Shown here in pieces: positions 8,960 to 64,000 of a DNA stretch of 64,000 nt. Both the position numbers and the translations under genes were made by a program. The notes under the pieces are model-generated. The model searched no databases. It saw only the letters and a program-made list of their open reading frames with translations, and was not told the origin of the DNA. Each line of letters opens with the position of its first letter. Within the stretch, counting starts at the first letter, position 1. Origin of the DNA: a virus; the IMG/VR virus record IMGVR_UViG_3300025098_000012, positions 62,001 through 126,000 of that record; one strand, given 5' to 3'.

Positions 8960-9152
8960 TGGGGTCTACCTTTCTCTTTTTCTTTTGTAGTTCCCACTTA
9001 GCGAGTGCTTGTTCGAGGACAGCTAAGTTACCTAAGTCCTCTTGTAGTTTACCCTCATAGTGTGCTTGAAGCGTCCTTAAGTTTTCTAGGAGCTTCCCTA
9101 CCTCAGTGCCATTAAGGTTTGGCTCTTCGGGTGTCTTTTTCCACTTACTCAT
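8952..9152 (-). CDS. Small coiled-coil protein (66 aa)
   Basis: Short highly charged helical protein (NLRTLQAHYEGKLQEDLGNLAVLEQALAK is the core region, residues about 25-50). It overlaps the upstream giant gene by 4 bases (ATGA) and the downstream 806-residue gene by 8. It may be an adaptor or chaperone between the two large proteins, which is inference. Confidence 0.7.
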   Translation of the reverse strand: MSKWKKTPEEPNLNGTEVGKLLENLRTLQAHYEGKLQEDLGNLAVLEQALAKWELQKKKRKVDPNG

Positions 9153-12100
9153 TTGATGTCCTCCAATGCTGTATCATCGGGGTTGCTAAGATCCACTCTG
9201 CTAAGTTTAGACAGAGTGCCATTTACTTGATCAGTACGAACAGAAATCCATGCGTACCTACTATCCCTAGCGTTCATAGAAGATATATCATTTTCAAGCA
9301 CAGTCGGGATGCCATCTTCGGGTAAACCATAACCCTCATCTGCCATCTTTGGATCTTCAATCAACATCCTACGATCATATACAGATAGGCAAGTCTCGTT
9401 GTTCTCAAAAGGCTTACTCGCTTTATTCCCTAAGATACTTTGTAATAAAAGATCATTCGAGGGGTGGCTATTGTCTGTAATGCCTACATTATCAATCAAT
9501 TCCTCTGCTTCATATTGCGACCAAGTGTAAGGCTGAGTAGGGAGCTGATTAAATGAACGAATGACCTCAACCCATGAGAGCGTCCTTTCCCTAAAGAATA
9601 AGAACGATCCAGCTAACGATTCCCCAAGTGTGGTTCTGCGTCTAAGGATACGATAAGAGAAAGGATGGATTGAGTCATTGGTTGTCGCATAAGAGCTACC
9701 TACAATGTCAGATGTGACACGCAAAGGTTGAGCGTCATCCCCATTAACAGAAGGCAAGAGCTTATAAGTCGAACGAGATGTGCCACTATCTCCTGCATAA
9801 AACTCTACTTCAAGCGTGTTAGCGTCATCAACAGATACGACCTTATAAGCACCTCGATTGTCATCAAGTGAATTAGGTAGACCCTGCGTACCATCTCCAT
9901 TATCACCTTGTGGTGATGCTCCGTACTCTGTCGGATTAGAACCTGCCAAAGCACCTTGAGGGTCGATCACTAAGAAATCTCCCTCTGCAACACCTAGAGC
10001 AATGAAGTTAGCGTTGGTGTCGGTGAGTTTATCTTCTTCAATGACAGAGATGCCAGCAACAGGGTCGGTGGAATAAATCTCTGTAAAACCATGTTCGATA
10101 AATTGATCGAACGCTTGGAGTTCGGGGATAAGAGGAACACGAGTGATGACCTTAAAGACATCGTTATTTGAAACAGCCGAGACAGCACCTCTGATCACTG
10201 AGCATTTAAGCGTTGCCCCGACCTCAAGCACTCGTAAATAAAGTGTCTCTTGGTTAGAATCATTAACGCACTGTACTTGATCACCTACTGATACCACATT
10301 CGCAAAGTCTCCCACCTGTGTATCTGTTCCACCACTAGCATCAAAGACACCTTCACCATCAACTGTGCGAGGTGTAAGCGTGGCTACACTGTTAGCATAG
10401 ACTACGCTATCTACTCGACCTACTCGTTGCTCATAAAGGTATCGGAAACCCTCGAACGCATAGATGAGTTTAGAGAACACATCTGTAAATCGCCTAAGCC
10501 TACGGACAGTGAAGTTCACCTCCTCGTAGAAATCCCAAGCTGGTTGAGGTAGGTTTGTTAGGGTGGACTCAATCGGGGATCGGACTTGGCTTGACCCATC
10601 GGCAAACTCAACTGGAGTATTCCCTGTGTAGTCTCTCAAGAGTCGAGGGAATGTAGGATCAAGATAGATACCTGCATCCAACTTAACTGTTAAGGTGATG
10701 GTGTCGTTAGGGGATAAGAAAGGTTTACCGTAGTTTTGACCCCCACTATCTACGATGTCGGGGTAGAGATTAGCATCGCTGACATCTAGTGTTATGTGTG
10801 TGACTAGGCCATTCTCTCTTACTACCCCACTTTCAGAAAAGGCATTTGTCGTACCAGTACGACCACCACCTACGGTCATCTGTAAGGTTAGGTCTACCCC
10901 AAAGGAAGAATATAAGCCATCTTTCGCCAAACCTGTATTCCCTAAGTTGAAAGGTATCTTAGTCACCCCTCCAATGACTTGGCTATACTCACCTAAAATT
11001 GTATTCAAAGCAGTAGCGTCAGCGATAGCTGTTCCATCAGCATATTCACATGGAAAAACCAAAGTCATATCAGAGTCAGATATGAGGTTGTAATCGACTT
11101 TAATGATAGAGACTCCAAACACAGGGTCTTTAACGAGAGCTGAAGTTGAGTCTAATGTTGGAGTGGGAGTATTAGTGTAGTTATCATTTAATATGATGTA
11201 GATAGAGCCAGTGGTTGTGTCGCTAAAGTATTGTGTGAGGTCAGCAACATCCGTAGTTAAAACACCTGTGGCTGTGTCTAGGCTTACAACTTTAGGGAAC
11301 TGTACTGTAAGGACTTGGCTTGTCCCCAATGTCTCTGTGATTTCTGTGTTTATATCGGGGTCGATAGCATCTAAGACCCGATGCGTACCTGCATTATGTC
11401 CGTTCTCGATGTAAAGAAGATCACCTGCGAGGACTTGGGCTGTTGATCCATGTAATGGGGTCACATTACGAAGTATGCCTTTGACACTATCCCCTACGAT
11501 TACAGGATTAGCAGGGTCTGTGCTGTCAACCTCAATCAATCCAGACCGAGCAGATCCTTTTAAGATCGTGTCGTCTTCATCAACTTCTGAGCCAATGAAG
11601 ATGGACATAGGGTCATTGATTCGAGAGATCCCTTCAAGATGCTTTGGTCTTAATGTAGTGCTGTTAACAGACGAGAAATCAAAAGTTCCGTCATTCACAT
11701 CGGAAGTGATTGTGCCTGTATTAACTCCACCTTCCTCTTTAATAGCAAGCGTTGTTCCCTCAATGATTAGTTTTTGATCTGTATCTGCACCACCAGTCAA
11801 GTCGATGGTTGGGTCTGGATCTATCTCTATGACTGCATGGGGGACTCTATTTGTAGGGAAAACAACATCTATACGATTATTAGAAATGACAGCATTGCTC
11901 TTAACAGAGAGTCGATAGCTACTAGGTCGCATGACCCCATTCTGTTCTTGCGTAAATATATAGCTCGTACTACCTGGAATATAGACAGGGTTATAAAAGT
12001 GATTTACACTATCCCAATAACTATCAAAGAGCCATGACTGCATATCAGTAGGGTCAGCCCAAGTCTCTGTAGCAGGGTCGAATGGGTTAGGTACTGGATC

Positions 12101-15100
12101 TTGAACTACGGTTAGTTCACTAGGCATTGTGGCAGAAACTGAAAGATTGGGTACGGTTGTCACTGCGTTAGTAAGCTCATTTTTTAGTTTTACCGTCCAA
12201 CTCGCACCATCATATTCAAAGATAAATGAATGAGCGTTTTCATAAGGAGCTGTGGAATTTCCACCGAAGTTATGGACATGGAGAGTGATCTCTAAACCTG
12301 TTGATGGATTGTTAAACAGTTCCTGTATCGTGGCATGATAAAAGTAAATCTTTAACTCGGATCTGTCATACAGACCATTTTGTGCGTTTAAGGGCCAATC
12401 TTCTTCAATGAAGATACCATTAGGGAACTGCCTAAAATCTGCCTGTAAGTTTTGTATCGTACATGACACTTCACCAGGTGATGTGTGTGCAGGAGGTAAG
12501 ATTTCTGTCCCATTGATCTCGGCAATCTCAAGAACACCTGTGGAAGCACTTGAGTCGGGCTTCAAGATCAAAAGGTCGCCCTGTCTAGGTGCTTGCTCAC
12601 AAATGCCATTCAATAAAGAGAAATCTTCATTCGTGGTGATGACATCAGAACCAATACTAGCTGTACCTCTAGCCTCATCGGGATAAGCATATTCATCAAC
12701 ACCCGATATGGCATTGGATGTCTGTACCTGTAGTGCATCTAAAGCAGGTGGGATCTGAGGTAATAGATCCCTTTCACTAAACCGACTCTTATAAGGGATG
12801 GACTCATCACCTGTGTCGTCAACAGCTTCGCCATCAAGGGCAGGGTATCTAAAAGGTACTGTCTCTGTGTAAAGGAACTCAACAGATCCCTCTAAAGCTA
12901 ACCCACTCGCAGGAACATTCTGACCTACGATTTCTTTGACAGGCCAGTTGGGTTCACTGATACTAGGGAGGCTTATATCAACAATCTCACCTGTAGATGA
13001 CTTTAGCCCGATGTCAGATCCAACCCTAAAGACTGTAGACGGTGAACTATCATCATCAAGATCACGAGCAAAAGACTCAATAAGAGTATCACCACGCTTC
13101 GGTGGGTTTTCAACCAACGACTCGCCATTGATCTTGAGAGTGAATACACTCCCCTTCAAGACAACATAGCACCCACTAACGATAGCTTCTACCTTAGCGT
13201 TTCTTGGCTCGGATTGTAGAGATAAGGGAGGGAATAAACCTAACTCAAGGAGGGTCGCTTGCTCGGCTGTGTTCAACACATTATGGAACTCTCCACCATT
13301 ACGACTGATCCTAACCTTCGAGTTGGTTTGCAGACCATTAAAGGTTCGGTCTACATTCCCTACAAGGGCATCAGCAACCTCACCCCCTTCACTCACAAAC
13401 TGAGTCGTATCTGGTAATCCTGTTGAGGGATCAATCGGAAACTCATCGAGAGGAACAGCAGATAAGATGAATGTGGGTTTACCTGCTGTCTCAGCAACAG
13501 AGGGATAACCATTCAGTGAGAAATCGTACACCCTAAAGCGAGCAGATCTACGACTCACCACAGGTAGCGATGAAATGTTCTCTATTTGCCCTAGAGCGTT
13601 GTTTTGAGCGTTGGCTATTGTGATACCATTGGTCGAGCTATCTAACGCTCCAGGATTGCGATATGAGTACATTCTCGTACTAGTAGGGAAGAGTCTACTG
13701 AATCTATGTTTATTCCACATAGGAGAATAAACAGGATCGTACTCTACACGCACATAAGGAAAGCCTGCATCAAAGTCAAAGACCGTCTTTTCCTTTTGAC
13801 GAATGAGGACATAATCATCCATCTCGTTCTCAATGAGTGGACGCTGTTGTTCAAGGATTGAAGCCAACACCTTTGCTTCGGGTGGCTCTCCATTGATCTT
13901 AATCGTATCTTCTGGTGTCGGATAATGATTGGAAGGATTAAGGGGAGTTAAAAACTCCATGCTCACATAACGAGGGTAAATCTCCCTCGTGATATGATCT
14001 TCCATACCTGGTGAGATCCAATCACCTGCTGTTAATAAGTTAAACTTAAATGATCCATCGGCATCTCCAACCACTTTCCCTGTGGTTGTAGAGAGGATGT
14101 CATCAATAGGTTGAACATACCCATTGTAAAGATTGATCCTAGAGCGAGCGACCACATCATTCGCTAGTAAGCCATAAACCCCAATCGCCTTACCTTGTGA
14201 TGTAGGTGAGGAGACAACTAACTTCCCTCCCGAACCTGTATCTTGATTGAGACTTTGTTGAAGCTCATTGGCGATTTCTGATGAGTACGCATCCTCATCT
14301 GCAACCCTTACTTGGAAGGTATCTGGTGAGGAAACAACACAACTGACATTCAACCCTAATCCATCGTATTCTTCGGGAGTCTTTGATTGATTAAAGATCG
14401 CTTTGTATGTGGGTTTACTTACTCGACCTCCTAAGAGAGTAAATGGTTTTACTGCACTCAACGCTGTGTGTAGCAAATAATAACTAACTTGAGGTCTTAC
14501 ATCATGACCATTCTTGAGGTCGATTAAACCTGCTTCGGAGTTAAAATTGTAGTCCTCATTAAGAGTTAAAAGCCTACCTCGACCAAGCGTGTGGTTGTAT
14601 TTGATGATCTGAAAACTCTCGGTATCGACAATACCTGTCGTAAGGGTAAGGCTTGTGTCTCCCTCAATCAAGACAGGTCTAAACGAGACATGGAAATCAT
14701 TGGTTGAGATGAAGTCATGCCCCGATGTGAAACCCTCGACTGTGACTTTGGTCATACCAGTTACATCATCAAGACCTACCACTACGACCCGATAAGGTGT
14801 GCCTTGTAAAACCACAATCGACTTAGCCTTAATGAAGTCTCTGTAATCACCCTGTATCAAGATGTCTGGACTCTTAGGCTTGGATGTTACATTCGCATTA
14901 TTTACCGTCCTAAAGGCATACGAGCTAGTCGTTCCCCCATAGGTGAATGAAGGCACATTGAGATAAGCAATCATCTCTGTCTCTATGTTCACCCTTGCAG
15001 GAGGACTTACATCAATACTGCTCGCACTCACAGATACAACATTGAAAATCTGTGTCCCGACATAAATCAAATCCCCTGCACCTAAGATACTCGTAAAGTC

Positions 15101-18100
15101 TCTTTGGACTGACAAAGATGTTGCCCCTTTGTCAATCTTGTACTTAGGAATCACCATCCCACTTGATGTCCGAACTGTGCCATCTCCTCCGTTAGACTTT
15201 AAGGTCGTATAAGACACTTTCACAGATGTGGTACTCGCCACCTCAAAAGAGAAGCGTATTGTGTCTTGGCTGATACTATAAAGACTTGCGTTAATTTGTT
15301 CAGGTCCTACAAACACTGTCGGTGTGGCTAATAACTCTACTTCTTTACCTGTAGGGTTGTAGGTGAACTGAAAACCATCCACCCTTGTCGCTTCTTCTTG
15401 AATGACTACAAAGCCCATCGCTTCAATGACACGAACACCATTAGGATCATCTGTCGGTGTGTAAGATACCTCTACACCAACACCCTCCTCTAAAGGATCT
15501 TCAAAGCTGATTGCACCACTAGTTGCTTCAAATCTTGGGTTCGCTAACAGCTCTAAGAAATCATCAAAGGGATCGGGATCAAATGGGGTCGTGAGCGTTA
15601 AACTCAAATCCATCTCGGCTGTATCTACCAAGCCACTACGAGGCTTCCTTACAAAGACCACCTCACCATCTACCCAACTGCTGTTCGCTACTCCCATAGG
15701 GCTTTCAAAAACAACCCTGTTATCTGTGACTGTAAAACCCTTCTCTACATTCTCACCTTCTTTGGTATGACCGACACCTACTTCGTATTCTATTTCTCCT
15801 ACCTTAATGCGATATGATCCACTCGTGTAATGATCTCCACTCAACTCGTAAGGAGATAATAACACCTCGTCCCTTAACACAGTTAAAGGATATGCGTCAT
15901 CTCCCTTACGGATAAACAAAGTTGAGCTAGGCAACACCTTGTCAAAAGCAAGCGTTCCATACACCTTGTATATCTCTACTGCCTTACGCTCCAACACAGG
16001 TAGATCATCTAAAATCTCTCCCACTACCTTTGTAGGATCTGGTGTCTCCGTTTCCTCTAACCCCTCTCTATACCCTCTGTAAATCTTCCATCTCCCAAGC
16101 TGAATACCCAACGCTGAACTAAGCGTAAGCACACTCCCTGTGATCAACTCAATCTTAAAATAGTTTAATCCGTCATAAAAGAAATCACCCTGTCTCACCA
16201 AACTGAGATCCAACCCCAAGTCTAAATCGACCCCTGTTAATGACCCAACCTTTTGCCCCGATAAGACCTCTGAACCTAAACGATTGATTAAACGAGCTTG
16301 ACCCTCTAACCCATCACTCGGCAAGTCATAGTCAACCCCTTCTGTTAAAGGCTGAGTCGAGATAGTACCGTTCAACTGCTCTTGGGTGATCGTGATAGAT
16401 GTCGTACCTACCCTTAATCCAGATCCCAATGCCAAGCGTGATGTCTCTTGGTTCACCTTAGAACTTACTGTGCGACCTACAATCCAATGAAACCCATTCG
16501 GGTTGCCACCAAATGATGTCTCTATGTCCGTTTCCCCAAGTACCTTATCTCCTATCTTGAAAAACTTGCCGGCTTCATAACCTGTGAAATCAAAGCGTGG
16601 CTCAAACTGTAAAAACTGAAACGCTGTGCTACCACTTATGTCGGCTACCTTCTCCTCATCAAAAGAATAATAACCCTTGACTGATGAACGAGTTAAAACA
16701 AACTCAAGCCCTGTCTCCAAACTCGAACTCGGCACAAGACCAATAGACCTTAATGACTCAAACTCTCCTGTCGTTGATGGATGATCTACAACAGATCCAG
16801 AGTCCACTACCAAATAACCGTCTACTACTGAGACTCCCGAACCTACCACATTCTCCCCTGTAAACGATACCACTCCACCGTCCACCTTAAATGAACCACT
16901 CTTGCCCGATAAACCCAAAATGCTCATGTGCCTTAATCCCCCTCTGCTTAAAGCTACATGACCACCGAAAATCTTCTTCGTCTGATTAGACCAAGCACGA
17001 CTCAATACAACACTCGTTGTGCCTTGTACTAAATAACCACGATGGACTGATAGCCTCTTAGGGAGCTTCTCTACTAACTCCACAGGTAATGTGCGACCTA
17101 ACTCCACTAAACGAACATACATTCGCTCATATCTGTAATCCCACTTCAAACCCACTCCACTAGGTCTAAATGAACTCGCCACTCCACTAGGCTCTAATCC
17201 CGAACCATCTGGTATATCCATCTTCTCTACTAATGTTAAACCATTTACTCCTGCTCCCACACCAATAGGGGCATCACATAAAACCAAACCATCATAAATC
17301 ACAGGTGAGCTAGATAAAATCTTTCCACTGTCTAACGCTACCTTCACCACACCATATTCTGCGTCTACTAAATCACCCTCTGTCGCTACATACACCACAT
17401 CACTGTAGCCATATCCTGCGACTCTCAATAAAGGGTACTCATTTAATCTCGGCTGTGGCGATAAATAGTCCGACACCCCTACAACATTCGACTCAAATCC
17501 TCCAAGAGATCCAGATATATACAACACCTCCTTACCCACATGATCACTGCCATCCTTAAATAAAACCTTGCCCGATGGATTTAAGACCACACCCTCTGCT
17601 CCATTACTAAACGCACCATCTTCTTCTCCCTCCGCTACTACAGGGAAATCATCTCCATTTATCTCAAATACTGTGACTGACGCATCAGCTACATTACCAC
17701 CTCCTATCCTTAACTCTCCCTCCAATCCTGCTATGATGTCATCCTCACCACCTACCACCCCAACTACAATACCAGATCCTCCCCTTAATAATGACCAACC
17801 CCTGTTCTCATAATCAAATCTAACCCTACTCGCATCATTACGAGTCCACCAAAATAATCCACCACATACTCCCGAACCCTCCACACTATCCAAATTATCA
17901 CGAGCTGAATGAACCACCGTACCACCAAAGAAATGATCTAACGCAACACCATTCTCATCAAGCACCGAACTTAACCATACACGACTGTTCGTTAAGTAAT
18001 AATAGACTCCATCAATCGCTGTCTCAAATAACTTCTCAAAACTAACATCCACACTCTCAACACCTATCTCTCCATCTCCACTAGAAATCAAAGCATAAGA

Positions 18101-18262
18101 GTCTACACCTGTATTACCTATCTCATATAGATCACGACCTACACGCTCCCAACGACCATCTACTTGAACAACACTCCCATCCACTACTCGTAAACATAAA
18201 CCAGTAGATGAAGCATTACGCTCTCCACTACGAACATCTAATATAATACTTCGTGAACTCAT
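9149..18262 (-). CDS. Giant virion protein, baseplate/tail-fibre type (3037 aa)
   Basis: One uninterrupted 9.1-kb frame. The product is almost entirely beta-rich, with recurring short units of the form YKVVSVDDANTLEVEF, FNVVSVSASSIDV or YRVVVVGLDD, typical of repeated sandwich domains in large phage baseplate or fibre proteins. The first third is G/V/S-rich. The RBS AGGAAAG precedes the ATG at 18262, which is itself part of TTTATATG. It is in an operon with overlapping neighbours. Coding-strand composition shifts strongly along the gene. The exact role (wedge, fibre or adsorption apparatus) cannot be fixed from sequence alone. Confidence 0.7.
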   Translation of the reverse strand: MSSRSIILDVRSGERNASSTGLCLRVVDGSVVQVDGRWERVGRDLYEIGNTGVDSYALISSGDGEIGVESVDVSFEKLFETAIDGVYYYLTNSRVWLSSVLDENGVALDHFFGGTVVHSARDNLDSVEGSGVCGGLFWWTRNDASRVRFDYENRGWSLLRGGSGIVVGVVGGEDDIIAGLEGELRIGGGNVADASVTVFEINGDDFPVVAEGEEDGAFSNGAEGVVLNPSGKVLFKDGSDHVGKEVLYISGSLGGFESNVVGVSDYLSPQPRLNEYPLLRVAGYGYSDVVYVATEGDLVDAEYGVVKVALDSGKILSSSPVIYDGLVLCDAPIGVGAGVNGLTLVEKMDIPDGSGLEPSGVASSFRPSGVGLKWDYRYERMYVRLVELGRTLPVELVEKLPKRLSVHRGYLVQGTTSVVLSRAWSNQTKKIFGGHVALSRGGLRHMSILGLSGKSGSFKVDGGVVSFTGENVVGSGVSVVDGYLVVDSGSVVDHPSTTGEFESLRSIGLVPSSSLETGLEFVLTRSSVKGYYSFDEEKVADISGSTAFQFLQFEPRFDFTGYEAGKFFKIGDKVLGETDIETSFGGNPNGFHWIVGRTVSSKVNQETSRLALGSGLRVGTTSITITQEQLNGTISTQPLTEGVDYDLPSDGLEGQARLINRLGSEVLSGQKVGSLTGVDLDLGLDLSLVRQGDFFYDGLNYFKIELITGSVLTLSSALGIQLGRWKIYRGYREGLEETETPDPTKVVGEILDDLPVLERKAVEIYKVYGTLAFDKVLPSSTLFIRKGDDAYPLTVLRDEVLLSPYELSGDHYTSGSYRIKVGEIEYEVGVGHTKEGENVEKGFTVTDNRVVFESPMGVANSSWVDGEVVFVRKPRSGLVDTAEMDLSLTLTTPFDPDPFDDFLELLANPRFEATSGAISFEDPLEEGVGVEVSYTPTDDPNGVRVIEAMGFVVIQEEATRVDGFQFTYNPTGKEVELLATPTVFVGPEQINASLYSISQDTIRFSFEVASTTSVKVSYTTLKSNGGDGTVRTSSGMVIPKYKIDKGATSLSVQRDFTSILGAGDLIYVGTQIFNVVSVSASSIDVSPPARVNIETEMIAYLNVPSFTYGGTTSSYAFRTVNNANVTSKPKSPDILIQGDYRDFIKAKSIVVLQGTPYRVVVVGLDDVTGMTKVTVEGFTSGHDFISTNDFHVSFRPVLIEGDTSLTLTTGIVDTESFQIIKYNHTLGRGRLLTLNEDYNFNSEAGLIDLKNGHDVRPQVSYYLLHTALSAVKPFTLLGGRVSKPTYKAIFNQSKTPEEYDGLGLNVSCVVSSPDTFQVRVADEDAYSSEIANELQQSLNQDTGSGGKLVVSSPTSQGKAIGVYGLLANDVVARSRINLYNGYVQPIDDILSTTTGKVVGDADGSFKFNLLTAGDWISPGMEDHITREIYPRYVSMEFLTPLNPSNHYPTPEDTIKINGEPPEAKVLASILEQQRPLIENEMDDYVLIRQKEKTVFDFDAGFPYVRVEYDPVYSPMWNKHRFSRLFPTSTRMYSYRNPGALDSSTNGITIANAQNNALGQIENISSLPVVSRRSARFRVYDFSLNGYPSVAETAGKPTFILSAVPLDEFPIDPSTGLPDTTQFVSEGGEVADALVGNVDRTFNGLQTNSKVRISRNGGEFHNVLNTAEQATLLELGLFPPLSLQSEPRNAKVEAIVSGCYVVLKGSVFTLKINGESLVENPPKRGDTLIESFARDLDDDSSPSTVFRVGSDIGLKSSTGEIVDISLPSISEPNWPVKEIVGQNVPASGLALEGSVEFLYTETVPFRYPALDGEAVDDTGDESIPYKSRFSERDLLPQIPPALDALQVQTSNAISGVDEYAYPDEARGTASIGSDVITTNEDFSLLNGICEQAPRQGDLLILKPDSSASTGVLEIAEINGTEILPPAHTSPGEVSCTIQNLQADFRQFPNGIFIEEDWPLNAQNGLYDRSELKIYFYHATIQELFNNPSTGLEITLHVHNFGGNSTAPYENAHSFIFEYDGASWTVKLKNELTNAVTTVPNLSVSATMPSELTVVQDPVPNPFDPATETWADPTDMQSWLFDSYWDSVNHFYNPVYIPGSTSYIFTQEQNGVMRPSSYRLSVKSNAVISNNRIDVVFPTNRVPHAVIEIDPDPTIDLTGGADTDQKLIIEGTTLAIKEEGGVNTGTITSDVNDGTFDFSSVNSTTLRPKHLEGISRINDPMSIFIGSEVDEDDTILKGSARSGLIEVDSTDPANPVIVGDSVKGILRNVTPLHGSTAQVLAGDLLYIENGHNAGTHRVLDAIDPDINTEITETLGTSQVLTVQFPKVVSLDTATGVLTTDVADLTQYFSDTTTGSIYIILNDNYTNTPTPTLDSTSALVKDPVFGVSIIKVDYNLISDSDMTLVFPCEYADGTAIADATALNTILGEYSQVIGGVTKIPFNLGNTGLAKDGLYSSFGVDLTLQMTVGGGRTGTTNAFSESGVVRENGLVTHITLDVSDANLYPDIVDSGGQNYGKPFLSPNDTITLTVKLDAGIYLDPTFPRLLRDYTGNTPVEFADGSSQVRSPIESTLTNLPQPAWDFYEEVNFTVRRLRRFTDVFSKLIYAFEGFRYLYEQRVGRVDSVVYANSVATLTPRTVDGEGVFDASGGTDTQVGDFANVVSVGDQVQCVNDSNQETLYLRVLEVGATLKCSVIRGAVSAVSNNDVFKVITRVPLIPELQAFDQFIEHGFTEIYSTDPVAGISVIEEDKLTDTNANFIALGVAEGDFLVIDPQGALAGSNPTEYGASPQGDNGDGTQGLPNSLDDNRGAYKVVSVDDANTLEVEFYAGDSGTSRSTYKLLPSVNGDDAQPLRVTSDIVGSSYATTNDSIHPFSYRILRRRTTLGESLAGSFLFFRERTLSWVEVIRSFNQLPTQPYTWSQYEAEELIDNVGITDNSHPSNDLLLQSILGNKASKPFENNETCLSVYDRRMLIEDPKMADEGYGLPEDGIPTVLENDISSMNARDSRYAWISVRTDQVNGTLSKLSRVDLSNPDDTALEDIK

Positions 18263-52466: not shown

Positions 52467-52790
52467 ATGAGAAGGTCAGCACAACAGACCATCCGTAATC
52501 TTGAGCAACGCATTGCTCATCTTGAAAACCGATCTGCAAGCAGTTCCGATTTAAGCTCTTTGGTCGAAGCAATAGAGGCTCTTGACTCAAACATTCACAA
52601 ACTTGAGAGATCGTTTGATGATTGGTCTACCGATGCAAGTGGTTCTGGAAGAAGCCTACCACCTTCTTTTCGAGCAGGTGATATAGAGAAGGTTTATGGC
52701 ACTCTCGATGATCTGATTGAGATGAAGGATAGACTTTCTGAGGCACATCGTCTACTGCTCAAAATAAAAAGACATGACGAACTAGGGTAA
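52467..52790 (+). CDS. Late coiled-coil protein with N-terminal peptide (107 aa)
   Basis: Starts MRRSAQQTIRNLEQRIAHLE, near-identical to MRRSASEIISELEQRIARLE of 62799. The rest is helical, acidic/basic (LVEAIEALDSNIHKLERSF). RBS AAGGAGAACC. Overlaps the convergent gene by 9 bases. Confidence 0.6.
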   Translation: MRRSAQQTIRNLEQRIAHLENRSASSSDLSSLVEAIEALDSNIHKLERSFDDWSTDASGSGRSLPPSFRAGDIEKVYGTLDDLIEMKDRLSEAHRLLLKIKRHDELG

Positions 52791-59038: not shown

Positions 59039-59371
59039 ATGATTTACAACACTTTAGCACACATTGGAGATACGATCCCTTGTCAAATTGCTTGGCTCGG
59101 ATCTGATCGTAAACCTCAAGAGGTTCAGAATGTAGAGGCGACCCTCTTTCACTATGTAGAGGATGTACGCACAGTATTGAGTGGTCCGAACGCAATGGTA
59201 GCTACAGATCAAGCTCATCGCTTCGTGTATCGCTTTACCATACCAGATAATGTTTTAGGACAAACTATATTTGTAGAATTTAAAGCAGAACTAGTGGCTG
59301 ATAACACACTCATTTATGGCGAACAAACCGTTTCAGTCTCTTCAAGAGACACTTTCATTGAGGTGGTGTAG
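59039..59371 (+). CDS. Ig-like structural protein (110 aa)
   Basis: RBS AGAGGAGA. All-beta (VEATLFHYVEDVRTVLSG; RFVYRFTIPDNVLGQTIFVE), Ig-like. With the next gene, a likely virion decoration or neck component. Late-type promoter upstream. Confidence 0.5.
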   Translation: MIYNTLAHIGDTIPCQIAWLGSDRKPQEVQNVEATLFHYVEDVRTVLSGPNAMVATDQAHRFVYRFTIPDNVLGQTIFVEFKAELVADNTLIYGEQTVSVSSRDTFIEVV

Positions 59372-59373
59372 TC

Positions 59374-59694
59374 ATGGCAGTTATTTTTGAACAGCGTACA
59401 CAGTTGGGGCCGAATGATTTGAGAGTAGAAATCTATGACAGTCAAGGAGATGGGTTTGACCCATACTTGATTACCTATGGTTTTTACGGAGAGGATCATA
59501 CTAGAGGGGAGTGGGAAGTTGGTTTGGGAGGTCGCTCACCTGTGAGAGAGGAAGCAGGCAAATACTATGTAGGTGAAATGTTATCGGCAGGGTTTATACC
59601 AGGATCTTACTTTGTTCGTTGGGTTATAAAGCGAACTGAGACATCCCCTCTTGAAGTAATCAAAAAACAAGAGTTCGCCTTGATTGGATACTGA
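59374..59694 (+). CDS. Ig-like structural protein (106 aa)
   Basis: Starts two bases after the upstream stop. Beta-rich with GKYYVGEMLSAGFIPGSYFV then RWVIK, a pattern I associate with virion proteins near the portal/neck in large phages. Function by context. Confidence 0.55.
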   Translation: MAVIFEQRTQLGPNDLRVEIYDSQGDGFDPYLITYGFYGEDHTRGEWEVGLGGRSPVREEAGKYYVGEMLSAGFIPGSYFVRWVIKRTETSPLEVIKKQEFALIGY

Positions 59695-59696
59695 AT

Positions 59697-59912
59697 ATGA
59701 AAACTATTTTACTGCTTGCCATATCATTAGCTTTTTACACTTGCGATCAGTCTGAACCTTTCGTTGAAGATAATCGCACAGAATGTGAAAAGGCTTTAGA
59801 CTATATACAAGAATGTGTTGGATATAGACCTTACCTTAGAACCTGCTCGGTTGAAGATGCTGAAAAGATCCTCTCTACACCTTGTGAAAACATTAAGGAC
59901 TTGTGGAGATGA
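59697..59912 (+). CDS. Small lipoprotein/exported protein (71 aa)
   Basis: MKTILLLAISLAFYTCDQSE: signal peptide with a lipobox-like end. Mature part has four more Cys (CEKAL, ECVG, RTCSV, PCENI) suggesting disulfides. Overlap-spaced in the late operon. May be an outer-membrane exclusion or spanin-type protein. Confidence 0.6.
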   Translation: MKTILLLAISLAFYTCDQSEPFVEDNRTECEKALDYIQECVGYRPYLRTCSVEDAEKILSTPCENIKDLWR

Positions 59913-59915
59913 GAT

Positions 59916-60794
59916 ATGGCTATAAAATATGATGTAACCATGAAAGAACGATACTTAGCTGTCGTCCTTCTTGACATAATAGGCAGTACAGCATTTGTTC
60001 AGAGGAACGGAGCTGTGGTTGCCGCGAAATGGTTTCAAGTACATGACCGTCTTGCTCGGTCACTTGTGTATAAGCACAGTGGAAGAGAGATTGATCGGTC
60101 TGATGGATTTCTTTTGTCTTTTGATCGAATCATTGATGCTGTTAACTTTGGGTTAGCGTATCAACGAACAGTACCTAAAAAAACCAACCTACAAACCCGT
60201 ATAGGCATCCATTGGGGAAGGGTCATCGAAGTAAAGCAAGATGATGTGTTCGTTGGTGCAGGAGCTAAGAGAGTTGAACTTGAAGGTCTAGCTAAGAACA
60301 TCGCCGCTCGAACGATGAGTCTTTGCCAAGCAGGGCAGGTACTTCTTACTAAAGAGGCCATGTCAGCAACAAGAAATCGTACATCACACAATCTACCCAA
60401 AGATGCGAGGTATGTCTGTGTTGGGATGTACAAGTTCAAAGGTGTAAGTAAGCCACAAGAGATATACGCTGTAGGTGAAACGATACAATCATTACAGCCA
60501 CCTAAAGGGTCGGACAAAGTTAAACGACTCGGAGGTCCTAAGTACATCCGTAAGAGAGCTAGGGATCGAAAGTTTCTCGATTGGGTTTCCTATATCTTTT
60601 GGAGGTTAGGGTTTTTAGCAACACTCTTTTGGATTTGGGTCATTTTTCAGATCTCATTAGTACCCATGACAAGAACTTGGATAGGTCTGCCTTACCATAT
60701 GCCTCGATACGATGCTTTCATTGAGTATGTTGTGGACTCCTACAACTCTTTAACGAATCAAAAAAGAAGCCCTAAAGAACGGAGGCGAAGATGA
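59916..60794 (+). CDS. Membrane-anchored class III nucleotide cyclase (292 aa)
   Basis: The N-terminal domain (about 10-185) is a class III adenylate/guanylate cyclase catalytic domain. First metal Asp20 in LLDIIGST, second Asp62 in RSDGFLLSF, RIGIHWGRV, then LAKNIAARTMSL with Asn127 and Arg131 for the transition state. YKFKGVSKPQEIYAV is the usual C-terminal beta end. The Lys/Asp substrate-selecting pair is not conserved (GREIDRSD), so the nucleotide used is unclear. The C-terminus has a TM helix (about 222-250) and a basic tail. It overlaps the next gene by 4 bases. Probably active and membrane-bound. Confidence 0.8.
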   Translation: MAIKYDVTMKERYLAVVLLDIIGSTAFVQRNGAVVAAKWFQVHDRLARSLVYKHSGREIDRSDGFLLSFDRIIDAVNFGLAYQRTVPKKTNLQTRIGIHWGRVIEVKQDDVFVGAGAKRVELEGLAKNIAARTMSLCQAGQVLLTKEAMSATRNRTSHNLPKDARYVCVGMYKFKGVSKPQEIYAVGETIQSLQPPKGSDKVKRLGGPKYIRKRARDRKFLDWVSYIFWRLGFLATLFWIWVIFQISLVPMTRTWIGLPYHMPRYDAFIEYVVDSYNSLTNQKRSPKERRRR

Positions 60795-62798: not shown

Positions 62799-63200
62799 AT
62801 GAGAAGATCAGCATCAGAAATTATCAGTGAACTTGAGCAACGCATCGCTCGTCTTGAAGGTCGTAAGTCTTCTTTGAACCTCGATGGTGTGCTTGATGGT
62901 ACATCCTCTATGTCTAAGGTTGAGTTAAGTGATCTTGCTGTCAATAAGATGAGAGACAGCATGGATAACTATCAAGAGAGAAAGATCCAATCTATGCTCG
63001 AAGAAGCTCAAACTCAAGGGCAGGCTGATTTGAAAACTGCTATGGAATGGAGTGCTAGGAAAGTTTCGGGTCAAGTAGCGTCTAAAAAAGGATTGAAAGA
63101 CTTTACGCACATGAGGGGTTGGCCTGTAGAGTTAGGTAGGGAAGCTCGTTATTGGATGTACTTTGCTTTGATCGCTAAAGGCATCATCAAACAACCCTAA
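62799..63200 (+). CDS. Late coiled-coil protein with N-terminal peptide (133 aa)
   Basis: MRRSASEIISELEQRIARLE then GRKSSL, near-identical to the N-terminus of 52467. The rest is helical (EEAQTQGQADLKTAMEWSARK). RBS ATGGAGAA. The stop is followed after 6 bases by the convergent terminase end. Confidence 0.6.
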   Translation: MRRSASEIISELEQRIARLEGRKSSLNLDGVLDGTSSMSKVELSDLAVNKMRDSMDNYQERKIQSMLEEAQTQGQADLKTAMEWSARKVSGQVASKKGLKDFTHMRGWPVELGREARYWMYFALIAKGIIKQP

Positions 63201-63206
63201 AATCTT

Positions 63207-64000
63207 TCATTTCTTCCCAAAGCGACCATTGATTGAGTCTCTTAGGTTATAGCGTGGTGATTTAGGTGCAATCCTTTTAGCATCTGAACCACCTCGCCCT
63301 GTGTATCGACCACCTGTAGCAAAGGTCTTTCCCCCTGCCATTGGGTGTCGGTATTGCCGACTGCCTTTAGAACTAGCAAAGTATCGACCTTTGCCGATGT
63401 TATTAGATGCAAGCCATGCCATGCGTACAAGTGCGTCTGACATATCGTCATGTTTGCCTTTAGTCTGTGGGGCTTCGACTGTGATGAGATGCTTACCATG
63501 CACCGTTTGCTGTAGCTCTAAGAGTTCTTGGATATACGGTTCATGTCCTTCTGTCTCATAGTTAGGTCGATTGTAAAGTTTGATCTTCTGATCCCACATC
63601 ATGTCCTTAAAGTTTTGATACATCTGTGAGGAGAGCTGTTTGGTCATATTATGAGAGGTAAGATTTTTCAATCCTCGCTTCTCAAGTGCTTGTTGAAATG
63701 GAATACCAGCCCATTGGTCAAACATACCCTCTGTGATGTAGAACTTCTTTGTGTAATCTAACACCCAGTCAGCGACATCATCGAACTCTAATCGTTCTTT
63801 GTCTTGGTAGATACCTTCACCTGCTTTAATTTGAGCTACTAGATCTACCACGATTTCTTCACCATCGAGATGTCCAATAGCTATGGCAGTTCCGTCACCT
63901 ACAAGACCCAAGTCGATCCCCATAAAGTGTGGCATTCTAGCAGGGGCTGATCTCTGAGGTTTTAACTGTGTGTCAACACAAGATAAGAGATCTTGTTCAT
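63207..64000 (-). CDS. terL: Terminase large subunit, nuclease domain (C-terminal part; 5' end outside window)
   Basis: The frame is open from the right edge of the window, through the internal ATG at 63935, to the stop. Nuclease domain landmarks: FMGIDLGLVGDGTAIAIGHL (first acidic), EGMFDQWAGIPF, and GKHDDMSDALVRMAWL (third Asp cluster). These are the TerL RNase H-fold motifs. The N-terminal ATPase lies outside. C-terminal tail is basic, Gly/Arg-rich. Cleaves and packages genome concatemers. Confidence 0.8.
   Translation of the reverse strand, partial: EQDLLSCVDTQLKPQRSAPARMPHFMGIDLGLVGDGTAIAIGHLDGEEIVVDLVAQIKAGEGIYQDKERLEFDDVADWVLDYTKKFYITEGMFDQWAGIPFQQALEKRGLKNLTSHNMTKQLSSQMYQNFKDMMWDQKIKLYNRPNYETEGHEPYIQELLELQQTVHGKHLITVEAPQTKGKHDDMSDALVRMAWLASNNIGKGRYFASSKGSRQYRHPMAGGKTFATGGRYTGRGGSDAKRIAPKSPRYNLRDSINGRFGKK

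Follow-up and report, generated by a model that had tools for sequence, protein, structure and literature searches.

We propose that the virus studied here encodes an active class III-type nucleotide cyclase of its own, anchored in the inner membrane and working with a dedicated partner protein, and that it makes a cyclic nucleotide late in infection; we put the probability of this reading at roughly 60%. The reading draws on the catalytic residues, on purifying selection, on the pairing of the two genes and on their operon location in relatives, together with a fold that comes from confident structure prediction. The DNA analysed (the window) is a stretch of 64,000 nucleotides, positions 62001-126000 of a 226,698-bp virus record in IMG/VR, and its relevant features are collected in Table 1.

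The cyclase domain, its active site and its membrane anchor

The sequence-only reading had called the ORF a phage-encoded class III cyclase, and profile searches and structure prediction agree with it. The protein matches PF00211 in Pfam with an E-value of 1.2e-6 (28.7 bits against a gathering score of 21.9), a cut-off that five of its relatives likewise exceed, and its nearest model is TIGR04510 (E 2.3e-48, residues 15-204). An AlphaFold2 monomer model built on 120 aligned homologues has a mean pLDDT of 95.7, and the closest solved structures are Ma1120 and Rv1900c (Foldseek E 6e-14 to 7.5e-12; target-normalised TM ~0.9). Together these comparisons confirm, from sequence profiles and predicted fold, a class III nucleotide cyclase homology domain, a call well above chance. 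The gene begins 3 bp past the end of the preceding gene in the window, and its 3' end shares 4 bp (ATGA, 60791-60794) with the next gene.

Scans of viral contigs returned 122 further distinct homologues that are 42-97% identical to the window cyclase over the domain. Across these 123 viral proteins D20, D60, D63, K118, E123, K127 and R132 are invariant, including both metal aspartates, D20 and D63, in 123/123, while N128 is replaced by Ala in three members and is Asn in the other 120. Every catalytic landmark named from the sequence alone is present, with numbering that was partly off by one: Asp20 stands as given, and the others are D63, N128 and R132. The catalytic set is intact, and domain dN/dS, calculated from three close pairs with unsaturated dS, is 0.043 for the window and L003, 0.014 for the window and L001, and 0.045 for L001 and L003. 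These ratios support very strong purifying selection on the cyclase domain.

Class III cyclases select their base with a Lys/Asp pair for ATP and a Glu/variable pair for GTP; these pairs set the substrate, not family membership. In the alignment to Ma1120 and Rv1900c the beta2-beta3 hairpin of the phage cyclase is one residue shorter. If the invariant Gly56 sets the register of the strand, Asp60 would align with K101, the ATP-selecting Lys of Ma1120, and likewise with an Asn of Rv1900c. On this alignment-based placement of Asp60, the canonical Lys/Asp pair is replaced by Asp60/Glu121. To our knowledge an Asp/Glu pair fits no characterised cyclase class, so the substrate is not predictable from it, and the earlier view that these residues leave the product open stands. 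The replacement does argue against an ordinary ATP pocket. At position 121, Glu is found in 111/123 viral proteins and 105/105 bacterial ones and Asn in 12 viral proteins, and 12 divergent viral members change jointly at positions 58, 61 and 121. Ma1120 itself selects its base through K101 and D157, and its residues for the Asn/Arg pair are A164 and R168 (PMC4215837). It is active with Ala at the transition-state Asn position, and Asn substituted there is harmful (PMC4215837), so Asn128 alone is no proof of activity.

The GREIDRSD stretch had been described as nonstandard, a view that did not survive comparison with bacteria. While a single-sequence scan of bacterial genomes with the cyclase gave no matches, a degenerate GREIDRSD-type pattern picked out over 115 bacterial loci, chiefly in Xanthomonadales, Burkholderiales, Acidobacteriota and Myxococcota; bacterial relatives sampled by motif in this way form a non-exhaustive set. 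TIGR04510 is matched by 120/120 members of a joint viral and bacterial alignment. The bacterial loci rule out the motif as an oddity of the phage, and these two results identify it, at the level of sequence, as the signature of a large TIGR04510-like subfamily that is common in bacteria too. The transition-state position separates the two sides: it is Asn in 120/123 viral proteins and in 0/105 bacterial relatives, of which 97/105 have Pro. A literature search found no paper on a TIGR04510-type enzyme.

Behind the domain of the window cyclase the model places a helix at residues 220-248, with a best 19-residue Kyte-Doolittle mean of 2.1, in line with the C-terminal membrane anchor proposed earlier. 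A 19-residue mean of at least 1.4 is reached C-terminal to the domain in 104/119 viral members; 69 members also reach it inside the domain, so this hydrophobicity cut-off is by itself lax. The bacterial relatives are longer, and a strong hydrophobic stretch follows the domain in 53/79 of them, which suggests that membrane anchoring is probably ancestral in the subfamily.

Table 1. Features of the cyclase locus, with positions in the window unless a locus is named
Feature	Position	Strand	Remarks
110-aa conserved neighbour	59039..59371	+	same strand in 9 distinct loci
106-aa conserved neighbour	59374..59694	+	same strand in 11 distinct loci
Small lipoprotein-like secreted protein	59697..59912	+	optional cassette member; N-terminal hydrophobic stretch ending in Cys, as read from the sequence
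Class III-type nucleotide cyclase gene	59916..60794	+	intact ORF, 292 aa: catalytic domain, then C-terminal TM helix
Cyclase homology domain, residues 9-195	59940..60500	+	AlphaFold pLDDT 95.7; Foldseek to Ma1120/Rv1900c; dN/dS
Asp20, metal-binding aspartate	59973..59975	+	invariant: 123/123 viral, 105/105 bacterial relatives
D60-R61-S62-D63	60093..60104	+	Asp63 is the second metal aspartate; Asp60 and Asp63 invariant
Glu121, second base-selecting position	60276..60278	+	seven before the Asn position; equivalent to Ma1120 D157
Asn128 and Arg132, transition-state pair	60297..60311	+	Asn 120/123 viral, 0/105 bacterial; Arg 123/123 viral, 104/105 bacterial
C-terminal transmembrane helix, residues 221-248	60576..60659	+	hydrophobicity and predicted helix 220-248
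Partner, 172 aa	60791..61309	+	directly downstream of cyclase; two TM helices (~18-36, 46-66), ~50-residue coiled-coil helix (71-121)
Second small 2TM family	L281 3213-3491	-	
Second small 2TM family	L279 4716-4979	-	
Second small 2TM family	L024 11666-12010	+	
Second small 2TM family	L293 4561-4845	-	

The viral clade, the partner gene and their neighbourhood

In a quick maximum-likelihood tree, 70 viral rows form a single clade (SH-aLRT 99) that is separate from 49 bacterial rows; the divergent viral row L291 has a long branch and groups near the bacterial rows, a placement that is unsure. The carriers are many uncultivated bacterial viruses, on contigs from ~36 kb to 375 kb. In one of them, IMGVR_UViG_3300033182_000980 (375,691 bp), the two contig ends (the start of L004 and the end of L011) overlap inside the cyclase, residues ~11-146 being present at both, which suggests a circular or terminally redundant genome. 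Neither the window cyclase nor its partner had a match among 50,697 phage records, and capsid and cyclase searches of phage records gave remote matches only. A literature search, with most subscription papers outside its reach, gave no paper describing a class III cyclase from a phage.

AlphaFold2 predicts helices at residues 5-37, 45-66 and 71-121 of the partner (mean pLDDT 76), and by the positive-inside rule the long helix is predicted to lie in the cytoplasm. We counted 211 viral loci, some contigs being counted more than once, and both genes are present in 193/193 of those with enough sequence. At the 17 loci with the cyclase only, the contig ends at most 2 bp from it, and at the single locus with the partner only, the contig starts 70 bp before it. 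The pairing holds alike in loci selected by the cyclase motif and in loci selected by the partner. In a set of 69 distinct viral loci, every partner located (62/62) is downstream of the cyclase and shares its strand. Six loci have a gap of ~1.4-3.2 kb; elsewhere the two genes are adjoining, overlapping or at most a few hundred bases apart. An alignment of 59 diverse partners has 34 invariant columns. No family in Pfam or PHROGs matched the partner above cut-off, and a PDB search gave weak or unspecific matches. Searches for the partner in 4 genomes with bacterial relatives of the cyclase, and in 399 genomes sampled from a single bacterial phylum, the latter with a positive control, found none.

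In the window and its jumbo-phage relatives, minus-strand RecA/UvsX-like, clamp and nuclease genes are followed by small conserved proteins and then by the pair, and the lipoprotein-like gene is kept beside the cyclase in those relatives. A different setting is found in ~29 loci, where genes on one strand run TerS-TerL-(ThyX)-cyclase-partner-portal-head protease-decoration-MCP; these identities come from PHROGs, and the assignments of the large terminase and the decoration protein are weak. Several of the head-operon contigs are ~27-37 kb. The pair is retained in tailed phages whose genomes differ greatly, many of which have it among late genes. The sequence-only reading had placed the cyclase in a late operon between virion-like genes and a TM gene. 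The plus-strand run and the downstream TM gene are as described, but the virion-like neighbours are not recognisable in the window, where PHROGs identified no virion gene next to the pair; it is the ~29 relatives, a wider context than the window, that place the pair between terminase and portal genes.

Several other features of these loci caught our attention. A 242-aa ORF at 63207-63935 (minus strand) matches only the C-terminal part of the large-terminase profile (PHROG 9, E 4e-7), so the terminase may be split in the window phage, and a 3037-aa ORF at 9149-18262 (minus strand) has no PHROG match. Some 20 otherwise different proteins in the phage loci begin with MRR(T/S)ASE(I/V)(I/L)..LE.R(I/V)ARLE. 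Such proteins lie in the window at 52467-52790 and 62799-63200 (plus strand) and in L001, L002, L004, L005, L007, L009, L010, L011, L269, L284, L285 and L299. It could be a targeting or capsid-packaging tag, perhaps cut off by the head protease, much as the head protease removes a segment from the internal proteins of T4. A second small 2TM family (KTPLKSKKFIAYLIADFGWKII...GIIQIGYILGQAALDKY), a holin candidate, occurs near the cyclase in ~15 loci.

Proposed role of the pair and competing explanations

As we picture it, the cyclase is anchored in the inner membrane and would be catalytically competent, and it is probably both translationally coupled to and complexed with its partner. The long partner helix and the cyclase domain would share the cytoplasmic face of the membrane, and there the helix could hold or switch a cyclase dimer, should one form. 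Both genes stand among late head and packaging genes in many relatives, which points to late expression, so the cyclic nucleotide would be made late in infection, at the host membrane. No protein in nine large phage records exceeded the cut-off of PF00027 (cNMP-binding), which makes a host protein, or else the partner itself, the probable receiver; no recognised CNB domain was found with Pfam in the 59 partner members.

The same domain could instead be a pseudo-cyclase that makes no cyclic nucleotide, with or without nucleotide binding, and that serves late assembly or lysis as a sensor or scaffold in the membrane. The base-selecting pocket is unlike those of characterised cyclases and TIGR04510-type enzymes yielded no paper, so a loss of cyclase activity in favour of such a role is possible, and the absence of the transition-state Asn in the bacterial relatives, the placement among morphogenesis genes and the tight coupling to a coiled-coil membrane protein are all consistent with it. 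However, a scaffold is not expected to retain the full catalytic set (metal Asp pair and Arg 123/123, Asn 120/123), and the transition-state Asn is confined to the viral clade. We consider a pseudo-cyclase unlikely, while giving it serious weight. More doubtful is a self-contained second-messenger module, in which the product, possibly a cNMP other than cAMP, gates or is sensed by the partner and acts as a late timer; if real, it would serve phages with contigs from ~36 kb to 375 kb.

An improbable explanation is counter-defence, with the cyclase flooding or misdirecting host cyclic-nucleotide immunity (Pycsar, CBASS-like) or depleting a nucleotide pool close to the membrane. In Pycsar the signal is made by class III cyclases (PMC11224242), the pathway is attacked by phages (PMC9117128), and a tie to Pycsar had been raised from the sequence alone. 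The searches bearing on that tie were all empty: PADLOC gave no match for the cyclase at E <= 1, and the nine large phage records held neither a cNMP receptor over cut-off nor an Apyc1-like Lactamase_B_2 nuclease fold. A link through receptor or nuclease genes is not supported. Metallophosphoesterases occur in 8/9 of these records; they are so generic a family that their presence has no bearing on Pycsar. The fixed position of the gene and its near-universal retention with one partner also resemble core phage biology rather than a variable counter-defence gene.

Less probable again is a module for lysis or membrane timing, in which the partner is a holin-like or SLATT-like pore whose opening is set by the cyclase, perhaps via its product. 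The two TM helices plus long helix of the partner fit such a pore, one divergent group has an endolysin-like gene a few kb downstream, and the 2TM effector family SLATT_fungal (Pfam) weakly matches 46/59 partners (best 5e-5; window partner 14.2 bits against a cut-off of 26.5). However, AbrB, an unrelated membrane family, matches 41/59 partners almost as well, and the SLATT match is a hint only that may reflect plain hydrophobicity. The holin match in PHROGs is weak (E 0.024), and no lysis gene was recognised beside the pair in the window. That the cyclase is a moron newly acquired from a host, or bacterial DNA mis-binned as viral, and plays no part in the phage is highly improbable: the nearest named family is bacterial, but the viral proteins form a single clade that diverges internally to 42% identity at dN/dS ~0.014-0.045, terminase and portal genes adjoin the pair, and the partner is absent from the 399 genomes of one phylum and the 4 genomes with bacterial relatives; mis-binning is rejected on the grounds of the pairing, the phage neighbours, the viral clade and that absence.

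Phages destroy or sequester host cyclic nucleotides. If our preferred reading of an active, membrane-anchored cyclase is true, a set of tailed phages makes a cyclic-nucleotide signal as core biology, and the always-adjoining two-helix membrane protein suggests that these viruses run their own signalling module late in infection. The question of phage cyclic-nucleotide signalling is now directly testable with two small genes.

Comparison with known systems

Viral class III cyclases with the same fold are present in BFVD (A0A6J5RWB7 from an uncultured Caudovirales member, and giant-virus proteins). They are only 14-20% identical to the phage cyclase and mostly larger multidomain proteins, and do not belong to its family. 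PycC of Pycsar also has a class III fold, and the phage cyclase has a weak profile match to the uridylate cyclase chain 8jsz (E 5e-4). The phage enzyme differs from PycC in its pocket residues, lacks a cNMP-binding effector gene, and is phage-encoded, not anti-phage.

The best solved matches in both sequence and fold are the mycobacterial Ma1120 and Rv1900c (LipJ). All three share the metal Asp pair and the Arg, and Rv1900c is also without the canonical Lys. Unlike these two, the phage cyclase has a shorter beta2-beta3 hairpin, the Asp60/Glu121 pocket, an insert before residue 118 and a membrane anchor, and it sits in a phage gene pair.

Closest of all is the bacterial TIGR04510 ('putative peptide modification system cyclase'), of which the phage cyclase belongs to the same subfamily (E 2.3e-48 over the whole domain). 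Both have GxxID[RK][ST]DG, D60, D63, K118, E121 and R132, and a TM helix follows the domain in the phage cyclase and in most bacterial members. The match scores 165 bits against a 400-bit cut-off and covers only positions 7-204 of the 814-position model, short of full length. Whereas bacterial TIGR04510 ORFs run to ~800-1000 aa, the phage protein stops soon after its TM helix, at 292 aa, without the long C-terminal part. It has Asn128 where the bacterial relatives mostly have Pro, and it is paired with the 2TM/coiled-coil partner. The enzyme is of a kind already known (class III-type), but its viral branch is new and comes with a fixed gene pair.
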